Source: a virus. Taken from it: a stretch of DNA of 20,309 nt. Location: the IMG/VR virus record IMGVR_UViG_2162886007_000055, positions 1 through 20,309 of that record; one strand, written 5' to 3'. Position 1 is the first letter of the stretch; the number at the start of each line of letters is the position of its first letter. The notes under the pieces were generated by a model, which searched no databases, was not told where the DNA came from, and saw only the letters and a program-made list of their open reading frames with translations. Positions 2,350-6,705 of the stretch are shown piece by piece. A program made the translations under genes and the position numbers.

Positions 2350-3585
2350 ATGACCATCTTTTCCCAAATTTACGGCTCGCTAAAAGGCGGTTGGAAGACC
2401 CACGGTCCGAACCAGATTTCTGGCAGCGGTGCTTTCGACTCTCCCGATGGGTTCGGTGACACCGTCAGCGCAGAATCGGCCATGCGCTTGTCCGCAGTCT
2501 GGTCCTGCATGAACATCCGGGCCGAGACGGTGAGCACTCTGCCACTCAATCTGCGCGACGGTGCAAAACAGGTACTTACGAAACATCCTCTCTACAACGT
2601 GCTGCATCGTTCTCCTAACGCGGACATGACGGCGGCCGAGTACTGGTCGCTCAACACCGCGCATTTGGACATGTTCGGCAATGCGGTAAGCATCATCGAG
2701 AGGCGTAGCGACAAGTCCGTCATTGCACTCACGCCGCAAGACCCTGGCAAGGCATCGATCCAGTTCAACAAGTCTGGTTCCCGCAAGATTTGGACGATTG
2801 ACGGTGACGATTTCAGCGACGATGACATTTTGCACCTGCGTGGCTTCAGTGCCGACTCCGAATGGGGCGCGGCACGGTTGGACATCGGCCGTCAAATCCT
2901 GTCAGCGCAAGTGCAAGCCAACCGTTCGGCAATGTTGGCCTTCAAACAGGGGCTGAAGGTCGGTGGCTTCTTCCTCAACGAGGGTAAAAACGACTGGACA
3001 ACCGAACAACTGAAGGATTTCGGCAAGCGCTTGGACTTTTTCGGCCGGTCAGAGAATGCGGGCAAGTGGATGACGCTTTTGCGCAACATGAAGCCTATCG
3101 CCGGCACGGAATTTAGCGTCAAGCCGTCCGAAGCGCAGTTGTTGGAGTCGCGCTATTTCGGCATCGAAGAAATCTGTAGGTTGTTTAATGTTCCGCCGCC
3201 GTTGATCGGACATACGAGCAAAGCATCGTCGTGGGCGTCGTCGTTGGAGAACTTGAACCTTCACTTCATCATCTATTCGCTGCAGCCGACGTTGGTGCGC
3301 TATGAACAGCGCATTGAAAAGAAACTTTTGACGCCGTATGACATCGCTGCAGGCGTGCAGGCCAAGTTCTCAATGCAAGGTTTGCTGCGTGGTGATACCA
3401 AGACGCGTCAAGCCTTCTACGCATCCGGCTTGCAGAACGGCTATTTGAACCAAAACGAAGTACGCGACCTTGAGGACATGCCGGGGATCGGTCCTGAAGG
3501 CGACGTGTACCGCGTACAACTCAACATGGCCGGGGCGGATGCCGGCAACGACACGCCCCCTAGCGATCAAGGAAACAACCAATGA
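2350..3585 (+). CDS. Portal protein, HK97 family
   Basis: This 411-residue protein would form the dodecameric ring at one capsid vertex through which DNA enters and leaves and to which terminase and the neck attach. It matches the HK97-type portal family in length (about 400-430) and by its hallmarks: an N-terminal SAVWSCMNIRAETVSTLPL segment (48-66), the YWSLNTAHLDMFGNA region (98-112), and the wing/stem motif ESRYFGIEEICRLFNVPPPL (266-285). The C-terminal tail is flexible and Asn/Asp/Gly-rich. The start follows the terL stop by three bases with only a weak ribosome binding site, so it probably depends on re-initiation. The end overlaps the protease gene by four bases (ATGA). Confidence 0.95.
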   Translation: MTIFSQIYGSLKGGWKTHGPNQISGSGAFDSPDGFGDTVSAESAMRLSAVWSCMNIRAETVSTLPLNLRDGAKQVLTKHPLYNVLHRSPNADMTAAEYWSLNTAHLDMFGNAVSIIERRSDKSVIALTPQDPGKASIQFNKSGSRKIWTIDGDDFSDDDILHLRGFSADSEWGAARLDIGRQILSAQVQANRSAMLAFKQGLKVGGFFLNEGKNDWTTEQLKDFGKRLDFFGRSENAGKWMTLLRNMKPIAGTEFSVKPSEAQLLESRYFGIEEICRLFNVPPPLIGHTSKASSWASSLENLNLHFIIYSLQPTLVRYEQRIEKKLLTPYDIAAGVQAKFSMQGLLRGDTKTRQAFYASGLQNGYLNQNEVRDLEDMPGIGPEGDVYRVQLNMAGADAGNDTPPSDQGNNQ

Positions 3586-4262
3586 GCGCGCAAATCATAC
3601 AGACCAAGACTCGCTACATTGACCGTCCATTTCAGGTCAAAAGTGTCACTGGCGATGGCCGCTTCGTCGGATACGCCAGTGTCTTTGGCGAGGAAGACAG
3701 CTACAGCGATATCGTCATGCCCGGCGCGTTCAAGCAGTCTTTGAAAGAGGACTTCACCGACAAAAAGCGCTACGTGCCGATGCTGTGGCAGCACAACAGC
3801 TACTCGCCCATCGGCATCTACCCGGAAATCTACGAAGACAGCACGGGCCTGTATGTCGAAGGTCAGTGCAACATGAAAGTGCAGCAGGGCATGGAATGTC
3901 ACGCGCTCATGGATCAGGGCGCGTTGACGGGCCTGTCTATCGGCTACACCACCGTCAAAAGCGAGTGGAATGAGACGACAGGCGTTCGTAAGCTGCTGCA
4001 AGTCAACTTGTGGGAAGTTTCCCCCGTCACCTTCCCGGCTGGTGACAGCGCGCGGGCGCAGGTGAAATCTCTCTCGGAAGTTGGCACACTATCGGAACTG
4101 GAAGACTATCTGCGTGATGCTTATGGTGTTTCCAGGAAAGAGGCGACGGCACTTGCGTCGCGGTTGAAGGCTGTCACGGCGGCGCAGAGTGATTCTGCTG
4201 CTGGTGCCGATGCGGCGAAGAGCATTACCCGTGTCAACTCCATCATCAAATCACTAATCTGA
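3582..4262 (+). CDS. Prohead maturation protease, HK97 family
   Basis: This 226-residue serine protease would be packaged in the prohead, cleave the N-terminal scaffold-like domain from the capsid protein, and then degrade itself. The family signature is clear: GYASVFGEEDSYSDIVMPGA (30-49), then VPMLWQHN with candidate catalytic H71, then ALTGLSIGY with candidate nucleophile S119, then LWEVSPVTFPA with a conserved acidic residue E145. All expected active-site residues are present. The C-terminal 65 residues are helical and Ala/Ser-rich. The start overlaps the portal stop (ATGA), and the capsid Shine-Dalgarno sequence overlaps this gene's stop codon. The position between portal and capsid is the canonical one. 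Confidence 0.93.
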   Translation: MSAQIIQTKTRYIDRPFQVKSVTGDGRFVGYASVFGEEDSYSDIVMPGAFKQSLKEDFTDKKRYVPMLWQHNSYSPIGIYPEIYEDSTGLYVEGQCNMKVQQGMECHALMDQGALTGLSIGYTTVKSEWNETTGVRKLLQVNLWEVSPVTFPAGDSARAQVKSLSEVGTLSELEDYLRDAYGVSRKEATALASRLKAVTAAQSDSAAGADAAKSITRVNSIIKSLI

Positions 4263-4265
4263 GGA
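4261..4265 (+). promoter_or_regulatory. Shine-Dalgarno for the capsid gene start
   Basis: GAGGA lies seven bases before ATG 4273 and overlaps the protease stop TGA (4260-4262). It decides for the upstream start and therefore for inclusion of the hydrophobic N-terminus. Confidence 0.7.
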
Positions 4266-4272
4266 CCGCACT

Positions 4273-5616
4273 ATGAACACCAAGTACATCAACTTCGCCT
4301 GGCGCGTACTCGTTGCCACCATCGTCACCACCCTCTTCTGCACCGGCCATGCGGCGGCCGCCGCGCTGATCGCACCTGTCGTCGGCGCCGACTTGGAGGA
4401 ACTGGCACACAACATGGCCTCCGCCAACGCCACGTTCAAGGCGGCGCACAAGGAAGTCAAGGAAGCGAACGAGGAACTGACGCGCAAGATGAGCGAGCAG
4501 GGCACCAAGATCACCCAGGAACTGAAGGACGCCATCGACAAGGTCATCGGCGACTTCAATGTCAAGTTCGAGGGTCTGAAGGGTGAAATGACCACGCTCG
4601 AACAGAAGGCCGTGGCCGCGCGCGACAAGGGCGAGCCGGAAGTGAAGTCGTGGGGTCAGCAGTTCATGGAAGCCGGCAACGTCAAGTCGGCGTTGGAGCA
4701 CGGTTCTTCCTTCACCGGCACGCTGCGCACCGAGGTCAAGCAGGTGAACTCGGCGGCGGCCGGCGCGCTCATCCTGCGCCCGTTCCGCGACAACGAGATG
4801 GTGTCGCTGCTGCGCGAGCGTCGTGTGGTGCGTGACCTGTTGACCGCGATCCGCGTCAACACGTCGTCCGTGGACTACGTGACGCAGACCACCCGCACCA
4901 ACAACGCCGGCCCGGTCGCGGAAGCGGCCAGCAAGCCTTACTCCGACTACGCGTGGGGTTCGGCTACCGCTGTCATTCGCACGCTGGCACACCTGGCGAA
5001 GATCACCCGCCAGGCGATGGACGACGCGCCGCGTCTGGTCGGCGAAATCGACAGCGAAATGCGCTACGGCCTGGGCTTCGTGGAGGAACGTCAGTTCCTG
5101 TTCGGCAACGGCACCGGCCAGAACCTCAACGGCATCATGCCGCAGGCCACCGCGTTCGCGCTGCCGGCCGGTTTCACTCGTCGCGCCGGCACCACGAAGG
5201 TGGATGTTCTGCGCGTGGCGATGCTGCAGAACGCCGTGGCACTGCTGCCGGCCGATGGCATCGTGCTCAACGACGTGGACTGGGCCGATATCGAACTGAC
5301 CAAGACCACCGACGGCGCGTACCTGTTCGCCAACCCGCAGGGCAGCGTGTCGCCGCGCATGTGGAGCCTGCCCGTGGTCACCACGCCGGCCATGACCGCC
5401 GACAACTTCCTCGTCGGCAACTTCACCATGGGCGCGACGATCTATGACCGCATGATGGTCGAAGTGCTGATTTCGACCGAGAACGTGGACGACTTCGAGA
5501 CGAACCGCGCCACCATGCGTGCGGAGGAACGTGTCGGCCTGGCCGTCAAGCGTCCGCAGGCGTTCACCAAGGGTACGTTCTCTACCGCCATCCCGCTCAT
5601 CAACCCGGCCGCCTAA
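4273..5616 (+). CDS. Major capsid protein, HK97 fold
   Basis: This 447-residue protein forms the capsid shell. From residue 160 onward it can be aligned by eye with HK97 gp5: AAAGALILRP, the E-loop EAASKPYSD (218-225), RQAMDDAP (246-253), FGNGTGQNLNG (277-287), WSLPVV (364-369) and the C-terminal EERVGLAVKRPQAF. Residues 38-115 form a charged coiled coil equivalent to the HK97 delta (scaffold) domain; by analogy the protease would cut near K156. Oddly, the chain opens with a positively charged and hydrophobic stretch (K4, R11, VLVATIVTTLF at 12-22, then GHAAAAA) resembling a Sec signal peptide. ATG 4273 has a good Shine-Dalgarno sequence; an internal ATG at 4414 (residue 48) follows GGAGGA and would give a conventional delta domain. 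Leucine codons are mostly CTG, unlike the TTG-rich flanking genes, as expected for high expression. Confidence 0.95.
   Translation: MNTKYINFAWRVLVATIVTTLFCTGHAAAAALIAPVVGADLEELAHNMASANATFKAAHKEVKEANEELTRKMSEQGTKITQELKDAIDKVIGDFNVKFEGLKGEMTTLEQKAVAARDKGEPEVKSWGQQFMEAGNVKSALEHGSSFTGTLRTEVKQVNSAAAGALILRPFRDNEMVSLLRERRVVRDLLTAIRVNTSSVDYVTQTTRTNNAGPVAEAASKPYSDYAWGSATAVIRTLAHLAKITRQAMDDAPRLVGEIDSEMRYGLGFVEERQFLFGNGTGQNLNGIMPQATAFALPAGFTRRAGTTKVDVLRVAMLQNAVALLPADGIVLNDVDWADIELTKTTDGAYLFANPQGSVSPRMWSLPVVTTPAMTADNFLVGNFTMGATIYDRMMVEVLISTENVDDFETNRATMRAEERVGLAVKRPQAFTKGTFSTAIPLINPAA
4395..4400 (+). promoter_or_regulatory. Possible internal Shine-Dalgarno in the capsid gene
   Basis: GGAGGA is a strong Shine-Dalgarno core located 13 bases before the in-frame ATG 4414 (capsid residue 48). 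The spacing is longer than optimal, so internal initiation is only a possibility. If used, it would make a 400-residue capsid protein without the hydrophobic leader. Confidence 0.3.
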
Positions 5617-5650
5617 CGGCCAGGGGCTGACGCGAAAGCAGCACCCTCCG

Positions 5651-5682
5651 TCGCCCCGGTACGCCATGTGCCGGGGCGATTT
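5651..5682 (+). terminator. Strong hairpin after the capsid gene, terminator-like
   Basis: Arms 5651-5662 and 5668-5679 pair over 12 bases with one G-U pair around the loop GCCAT; the stem is GC-rich (CGCCCCGG against CCGGGGCG). It is followed only by TTTC rather than a long T run, so it may be a partial terminator or a 3' mRNA-stabilising hairpin. A smaller imperfect stem (CCCGGCCG against CGGCCAGGG, with one bulged A) spans the capsid stop codon at 5604-5625. Confidence 0.55.
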
Positions 5683-5706
5683 CGCATCCAACTCAGGAGC
5701 ACCGCA

Positions 5707-6177
5707 ATGAAGAATCAACGCTACAACCTGCTGACCACGCTGATCGTGTCGGCGCTGCATCCGAACGAACCGTTCCCCGTGGGCACCACTTGGGAGCCTA
5801 CCAACGCCATCGACATCCAAGAGGCCGAGGCGTTGTGCTTGGCCGGCTACGCCAAGAAGATCGACGGCGGCGCGTCCGACAAGTTGCAGCCGACTTGGCT
5901 GCAGAAGCAGGACGAGGCAAAGCGCAAGGCCGCCGAACAGGAACAATCGCAGGACGAGGAAGACCCGGCGCCGACCATCACGTCCGATGAGGACGAAGAA
6001 CTGCGCGCTATCCTGCTGGGCAACGTCGAACAAGTCCGTGCCGAACTGGACGGCCTGACCGCTGCGCAATTGCTGCGTCTGGACGAGCTGGAAGGCGACA
6101 AGGAACAGGGCGGCAAGGCCCGCAAGGGCGTGCACGACGCCATCAACGAAGCCTACGCGGCACTGGAACAGGAGTAA
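5707..6177 (+). CDS. Unknown acidic head protein downstream of capsid gene
   Basis: This 156-residue protein has no function I can assign. Residues 1-48 form a small domain (LIVSALHPNEPFPVGTTW, then IDIQEAEALCLAGYAKKI) like the short DUF7210-type proteins often found after phage capsid genes. The middle (about 60-95) is very rich in Glu, Gln, Asp and Lys and probably unstructured or coiled. The C-terminal part (about 98-154: LRAILLGNVEQVRAEL, LTAAQLLRLDELE, KARKGVHDAINEAY) looks like a compact helical domain seen as a C-terminal appendage of other phage head proteins. ATG 5707 is chosen because AGGAG (5695-5699) lies seven bases upstream; an earlier in-frame GTG at 5668 would lie inside the hairpin. 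A head-completion or decoration role is inferred only from position. Confidence 0.75.
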   Translation: MKNQRYNLLTTLIVSALHPNEPFPVGTTWEPTNAIDIQEAEALCLAGYAKKIDGGASDKLQPTWLQKQDEAKRKAAEQEQSQDEEDPAPTITSDEDEELRAILLGNVEQVRAELDGLTAAQLLRLDELEGDKEQGGKARKGVHDAINEAYAALEQE

Positions 6178-6183
6178 GCCGCC

Positions 6184-6705
6184 ATGAAGCTGATTACGCT
6201 TGACGAAGCACGCGATCACGTAAAGGCCGAAGGCGACGATGATGAACTGTTGACCGTGTATTGCAACGCGGCCGAAGCTGCGTGCGCTCGCCTCGCCAAT
6301 CGTAGTCTCTTCGCAACGACGCAAGAACTCCAAGCCGCGCAAGCTACTATCCCCACTCGCATGGCGGCGGCGTACACCGCGTATGACGCCGCCATTGCGA
6401 GCGCGCAAGCGTCAGATGACAGCAGGGTGGCTGCAATGCTCACTTCGGGGGCGCAGAGCACGTTGGACGCGTCCACCACGATGTGCGAGAGCATCGCCCA
6501 TGGCTTAGCCGTGGACGCGGCGGCAGATGCGGCCGGCTTGCCAGGCAACGACGCCATCCGGGCCGCCATTTTGCTGTTGGTAGGTCACTACTACGCCACG
6601 CGTCCGGCGGTTATCACTGGTCAGGGTGCGGCGGCCATCGAAGTTCCGCAGGGAACTGCCGATATCATGGCGAACTATCGTTGGATCGGGCCGGAGTATG
6701 TATGA
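6184..6705 (+). CDS. Head-tail connector protein, gp6-like
   Basis: This 173-residue protein would form the ring under the portal that connects head to neck. The N-terminus (LITLDEARDHVKAEGDDDEL, then VYCNAAEAACARLANRSLF) is the typical opening of the HK97 gp6 / phage connector family, in which a helical bundle begins with a short strand and the LDEAK-like helix. The family is often about 100 residues; this copy has an Ala-rich helical insertion near residues 55-105 before the C-terminal AIRAAILLLVGHYYATR helix (about 125-140) and a short tail. AGGAG (6170-6174) lies nine bases before the start. The stop overlaps the next gene by four bases (ATGA at 6702). Confidence 0.85.
   Translation: MKLITLDEARDHVKAEGDDDELLTVYCNAAEAACARLANRSLFATTQELQAAQATIPTRMAAAYTAYDAAIASAQASDDSRVAAMLTSGAQSTLDASTTMCESIAHGLAVDAAADAAGLPGNDAIRAAILLLVGHYYATRPAVITGQGAAAIEVPQGTADIMANYRWIGPEYV

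Follow-up and report, generated by a model that had tools for sequence, protein, structure and literature searches.

The major capsid protein (MCP) encoded by the virus analysed here begins with a leader of about 40 residues, made up of a positively charged n-region, a hydrophobic helix of 19-21 residues and a short Ala-rich helix, which precedes a normal scaffolding (delta) domain. Comparison with its relatives shows, at the level of sequence, that this leader is an exchangeable cassette that has been gained, lost and shuffled between MCP lineages, and this mobility, absent from the preliminary description of the DNA, is its main feature. HK97-type MCPs, with their fused scaffold, are the textbook example of a shell that self-assembles in the cytoplasm, and the frequent swapping of a membrane-seeking leader suggests that in this family of tailed phages the shell protein is handled at the cell membrane ahead of assembly. 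The window, that is, the whole stretch of DNA analysed, is an entire IMG/VR virus record of 20,309 bases. It has the usual head-gene order (terminase large subunit, portal, prohead protease, MCP, then connector and tail genes), and the features discussed below are the following.

559-2346, + strand: terminase large subunit, TerL (Pfam)
2350-3585, + strand: portal protein (Pfam)
3582-4262, + strand: prohead protease (Peptidase_S78), expected to remove both leader and delta domain (domain search)
4262-4265, + strand: AGGA, Shine-Dalgarno sequence of the leader start, 7 nt before the ATG at 4273 (sequence)
4273-5616, + strand: MCP gene, HK97-type
4273-4392, + strand: leader cassette, residues 1-40, MNTKYINFAWRVLVATIVTTLFCTGHAAAAALIAPVVGAD (sequence; hydrophobicity; indel here in sister MCPs)
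4279-4341, + strand: predicted hydrophobic helix 1, membrane-type, residues 3-23 (AlphaFold2, pLDDT about 75-86; hydrophobicity)
4351-4383, + strand: predicted second helix, short and Ala-rich, residues 27-37 (AlphaFold2)
4393-4740, + strand: delta (scaffolding) domain, ordinary HK97-type, residues 41-156 (AlphaFold2; alignment of full-length HK97 and D3 MCPs)
4395-4416, + strand: apparent internal start, GGAGGA (4395-4400) followed at a spacing of 13 nt by an in-frame ATG (4414-4416, codon 48), judged unused
4741-5613, + strand: mature MCP, HK97 fold (Pfam; PDB profile and fold matches)

By its fold, its delta domain and its gene order, the window MCP is of the HK97 type with a fused scaffolding domain. 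It matches Pfam Phage_capsid (1.3e-55), and a PDB profile search matched it to the full-length chains of D3, phiXacJX1 and HK97, while Foldseek aligned it with D3 at 3.3e-35 and with HK97 2ft1 at an rmsd of 2.3 over 256 columns. It shares with the MCPs of HK97 (gp5), D3 and phiXacJX1 the fold, the fused N-terminal helical scaffold, the portal and Peptidase_S78 genes immediately upstream and the cleavage neighbourhood. AlphaFold2 places the coiled-coil helices of the delta domain at residues 41-75 and 82-118. K156 is invariant among the aligned leader-bearing MCPs and aligns with HK97 K103, from which we infer cleavage after K156; the delta domain is then 156 residues long including the leader and 109 residues long counted from codon 48, the latter in agreement with the length given in the preliminary description. 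The solved relatives, however, are leaderless, and the chains of HK97, D3 and phiXacJX1 align from about profile position 36-45, past the leader. D3 had been considered as a leader-bearing phage after a tblastn alignment reached query residue 8, yet its annotated start, together with a stop codon, makes its MCP leaderless.

In the relatives with a leader, every leader ATG is found close behind the protease stop, and nearly all of them have a Shine-Dalgarno sequence; in the window the ATG lies 11 nt past the protease stop TGA (4260-4262), with which the Shine-Dalgarno sequence overlaps. GC3 is 0.85 in the leader, 0.88 in the rest of the MCP and 0.69-0.70 in the protease and portal genes. When leaders are aligned, the third codon positions vary most and dN is lower than dS in nearly all well-aligned pairs; for the window and its relative L018, there are 11, 15 and 25 differences at codon positions 1, 2 and 3, with a dN of 0.40 and a dS of 0.86. 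Thus the Shine-Dalgarno sequence of the leader ATG, the MCP-like codon bias and the third-position variation together show, on comparative grounds, that the leader is translated and selected as a protein. An annotation artefact or a wrongly assigned start is ruled out by the start context in relatives, GC3 and the third-position bias.

The preliminary description had read this region as a positively charged hydrophobic leader before an ordinary delta domain, which the sequence, the hydrophobicity statistics and the AlphaFold2 model bear out, and its coordinates and residues (ATG at 4273, K4, R11, VLVATIVTTLF at 12-22 and GHAAAA at 25-30) are all correctly numbered. In most of the long leaders, a positive n-region leads into a hydrophobic helix (about 19-21 residues) and then into a short loop, where Gly and a polar or acidic residue are frequent; a weaker segment rich in Ala and Gly follows, and after it the delta domain. 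Two membrane-capable helices joined by a short loop are clear in L105, L102 and L079, and in the L105 MCP AlphaFold2 predicts, with low confidence (41-68), full-length helices at 3-21 and 26-43 ahead of the delta coiled coil. Among the long leaders compared, the second segment is shortest in the window's clade; the second helix of the window is weak as a membrane segment on its own and is flanked on its C-side by acidic residues. Taken singly, most leaders have a second helix that is not significant against shuffling. A second, short class of leaders (MRK..ALLG.MTAAERARGRYMR) has about ten hydrophobic residues, hardly enough for spanning a membrane, followed by a recurring motif (MTAAERxRGRYMR, EFGRKD, GPRIxFD, VRTGxxL). 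A lipobox-like LAAC or LANC (MTKLIVSAGAIPAAFLAAC...) was observed in the leaders of L118 (at 2333), L119 and L143 (at 2366), which resemble lipoprotein signal peptides.

The hydrophobicity of the leader is beyond chance. It was scored with a simplified Hessa-type scale, our own simplification and not the published predictor, taking the best 19-residue stretch close to the N-terminus. On this scale the window MCP scores +1.2 and the leader-bearing relatives (n=28) have a median of -0.8 and a maximum of 3.5, whereas the leaderless MCPs of the same family (n=50) have a median of 12.1 and a minimum of 6.3, without overlap between the two groups. Among the other + strand ORFs of at least 150 aa in the same loci (n=603), one reaches 1.2 and 16 reach 3.5, and the window proteins with such a hydrophobic segment are the MCP, tail protein I and the tape measure only. 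A net positive n-region within the first 11 residues was found in 31 of 32 leaders compared with 6 of 50 leaderless MCPs. Hydrophobicity and n-region charge appear to match those of a membrane signal-anchor or of a two-helix hairpin. We also considered a holin or another known membrane family, and rejected it since the hits were all sub-threshold: the window leader matched no holin family, and one leader only, that of L181, gave similarities to Phage_holin_3_2 (PF04550; E 0.018, 15.9 of 25 bits) and phrog_175 (E 0.035). This leader belongs to a type (AQAAG-DV--F--H-D---L-MLG-AG) also found in L016, L017 and L184, and some cassettes might derive from holins.

Within this MCP family the leader occurs widely. 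The alignment of capsid homologues proposed in the preliminary description finds it conserved in relatives, and 37 long and 43 short leaders occur among 177 distinct MCP relatives, numbers that do not represent a prevalence, since the collection was gathered by similarity to leader-bearing queries and is biased. In a tree of 90 rows built from the mature region only, with the leader left out, well-supported branches force at least 12 changes of the long-leader label, which rules out a single ancient trait of one clade. Indeed, sister MCPs with and without the leader can be nearly identical in their mature region (97% for L097/L098, 99% for L063/L281 and 96% for L052/L069). At 80% identity or more we counted 19 non-overlapping pairs in which one member has a leader and the other lacks it; a few among the weakest pairs (e.g. 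L058/L074 and L032/L066) hinge on the cut-off of the short class. In DNA alignments of such sisters, the leader is a clean in-frame indel between the common Shine-Dalgarno region and start and the first codons of the delta domain. Conversely, one leader type can be found on MCPs that are just 38-57% identical (L026/L069, L016/L184 and L120/L197).

Leaders are present in prophages of bacterial genomes (L176, L179, L181, L184, L188, L191 and L197) and in cultured phages, with long leaders in Stenotrophomonas phage Silvanus, Mesorhizobium phage vB_MseS-P1 and Nostoc phage Nsp-JY10 and a short-type leader in Agrobacterium phage Rivra. Mass spectrometry of vB_MseS-P1 virions detected the products of g3-g9, including the MCP (g5) and the protease (g4) (PMC11409702), and virions are thus compatible with an MCP that carries a leader. 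The MCPs of L169 (PP395642) and L173 (PP395637), deposited with Nostoc and Microcystis as hosts, are closest to those of proteobacterial phages, and the stated hosts may reflect co-cultured heterotrophs.

Our preferred reading, which we put forward tentatively and rate as falling somewhat short of probable, is that the leader is a translated, exchangeable cassette that transiently targets the new MCP to the membrane and is then lost with the delta domain. The nascent leader would act as a signal-anchor or helical hairpin that engages the cytoplasmic membrane, with its N-terminus and the delta domain on the cytoplasmic side, and newly made MCP would be held or concentrated there, either ahead of portal-nucleated prohead assembly or while it proceeds. 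The prohead protease would then mature the shell and the leader would be discarded along with the delta domain. Such a joint removal is likely given the position of the leader, and mature virions would consequently be identical with or without it. Because shells that are 97-99% identical exist without a leader, we regard it as an accessory to assembly or to host interaction and not as a part of the shell. A hairpin would keep the delta and shell domains in the cytoplasm, and so would resolve the objection, raised in the preliminary description, to the export of a capsid protein. That the leader anchors prohead assembly to the membrane is plausible, and a membrane role is favoured over a purely lumenal one by the positive n-region of nearly all leaders and few leaderless MCPs. 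The fuller proposal, that an MCP-borne cassette delivers capsid subunits to the cytoplasmic membrane, starts proheads there and is toggled in evolution between near-identical shells, is possible although we consider it doubtful.

There is a precedent for membrane-linked heads in T4, whose prohead assembly begins on the inner membrane with the gp20 portal, gp40 and YidC (PMC9958956). However, T4 attaches through its portal and a chaperone, whereas in the window phage the candidate attachment is the MCP itself; if membrane targeting is true, membrane-linked head assembly would no longer be peculiar to T4-like portal chemistry. Another phage major coat protein with a membrane-spanning helix is the inovirus pVIII (PMC3185693), which is not homologous to the leader-bearing MCP as far as the two were compared. 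The pVIII helix stays in a virion that is extruded through the membrane, while the leader helix lies outside the mature MCP and the phage is tailed. In the open-access literature, which was the scope of our search and leaves subscription journals and preprints aside, we came across no tailed-phage MCP described as carrying a leader of the signal or membrane type. Whichever reading holds, many annotated MCPs of these phages carry a leader that is invisible to the structural work on D3, phiXacJX1 and HK97. Comparing one and the same shell with the cassette and without it constitutes a natural experiment on the site of head assembly.

Several points stand against the membrane reading. The window's clade has a weak second helix, the short leaders are barely of membrane length, and the acidic flank after the second helix of the window disfavours a cytoplasmic C-side under the positive-inside rule. 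Moreover, the trimeric coiled-coil towers formed by scaffold residues 2-66 of HK97 Prohead I are about 100 A long and project inward around the portal (PMC10275583), and the leader would thus be expected inside the prohead. Since anchoring that lasted until the shell had closed would trap membrane, it would need to be transient, to precede closure or to involve few or the first subunits. This same geometry makes a serious rival of a reading in which the leader never meets a membrane: leaders at the tips of the towers would bundle together or with the portal, strengthen the scaffolding and be digested with the delta domain. According to alignment and AlphaFold2 the leader is joined directly to the tower end of the scaffold, it is dispensable between sisters as an add-on to a working scaffold could be, and the geometry problem of the membrane reading is avoided. 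However, such a lumenal core leaves both the positive n-region and the signal-anchor-grade hydrophobicity unexplained, and hundreds of exposed hydrophobic helices would be expected at the membrane, or aggregated, before assembly. On balance we consider it rather unlikely.

A role in host interaction that leaves assembly unaffected is less probable still. The leader would then be a fast-changing anti-host module that, for instance, alters recognition of the MCP by a defence system or occupies the Sec or insertion machinery. Near-identical MCPs often gain, lose or swap the leader, as would be expected of such a module, and in most leader-bearing pairs amino acids change faster in the leader than in the rest of the MCP (a dN of 0.40 compared with 0.23 for the window and L018). 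However, faster change is also normal in hydrophobic segments, and a removable N-terminal domain would be an odd site for counter-defence.

The preliminary description had termed the leader secretory-signal-like. The part of this that stands is the positive n-region and the hydrophobic h-region of a type I Sec signal peptide, which Sec signal peptides and signal anchors have in common with the leader, even though the hydrophobic region of many relatives' leaders is longer than a typical h-region. In contrast, the c-region is inconsistent. Signal peptidase I sites were scored with a matrix built from 23 E. coli signal peptides, 22 of which themselves exceed 6 on it. A score of at least 6 is reached by only 10 of 32 leaders, and the leaders surpass shuffled sequence by a small margin (combined z 2.6). 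The best site of the window, HAAAAALI|APVV, has a z of 1.6 and is not canonical, although the end of some leaders is a good AxA site (GSAHA|A in L090, PDVAMA|A in L115 and GAQA|A in L016). A cleavable signal peptide as a general rule is thus unsupported, and export of the MCP or a fraction of it, or its cutting by signal peptidase I, is very improbable. Indeed, the cargo here is a capsid protein, heads could not be built around cytoplasmic DNA with an exported MCP, and many leaders look hairpin-like, a further hydrophobic segment often coming next.

The last alternative, also raised in the preliminary description, was that the leader is untranslated and that initiation occurs at codon 48, where GGAGGA and an in-frame ATG are indeed present, but we give it almost no credence, since the spacing is 13 nt, none of eight relatives from the window's clade has a Shine-Dalgarno sequence at this position, L103 and L021 lack any start codon there, and the leader's own start, its codon bias and its third-position bias contradict it.

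A separate observation concerns the 3′ end of the prohead protease gene, 88-123 nt before the mcp ATG, where L026 (2157-2185), L033, L052, L116, L249 and about 30 other relatives share the conserved codons CTT-CGG-GGG-GAn-CCC-GAG, which are absent from the window. Synonymous sites are conserved in this element (CTT in 30/33, CGG in 32/32, GGG in 29/32 and CCC in 31/32), even though the rest of the protease gene uses CTT, GGG and CCC as minority codons. The element folds into a 7-bp hairpin, CUUCGGG[GGGAG]CCCGAGG, whose pairing is retained in variants (e.g. L125 and L120), and 75 of the 76 testable exact copies in viral contigs sit between the protease and the MCP. No Rfam match was obtained at the hairpin even at E up to 1. 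A programmed frameshift from the protease into the MCP at the conserved G-run of these relatives was considered and rejected, the MCP frame being 0, +1 or -1 relative to the protease across phages; we regard the hairpin as a candidate mRNA operator or recombination boundary. Finally, an open frame of 720 codons was observed on the minus strand of the window (4246-6408), opposite the MCP and the next genes; its likeliest source is the MCP gene's strong GC3 bias.
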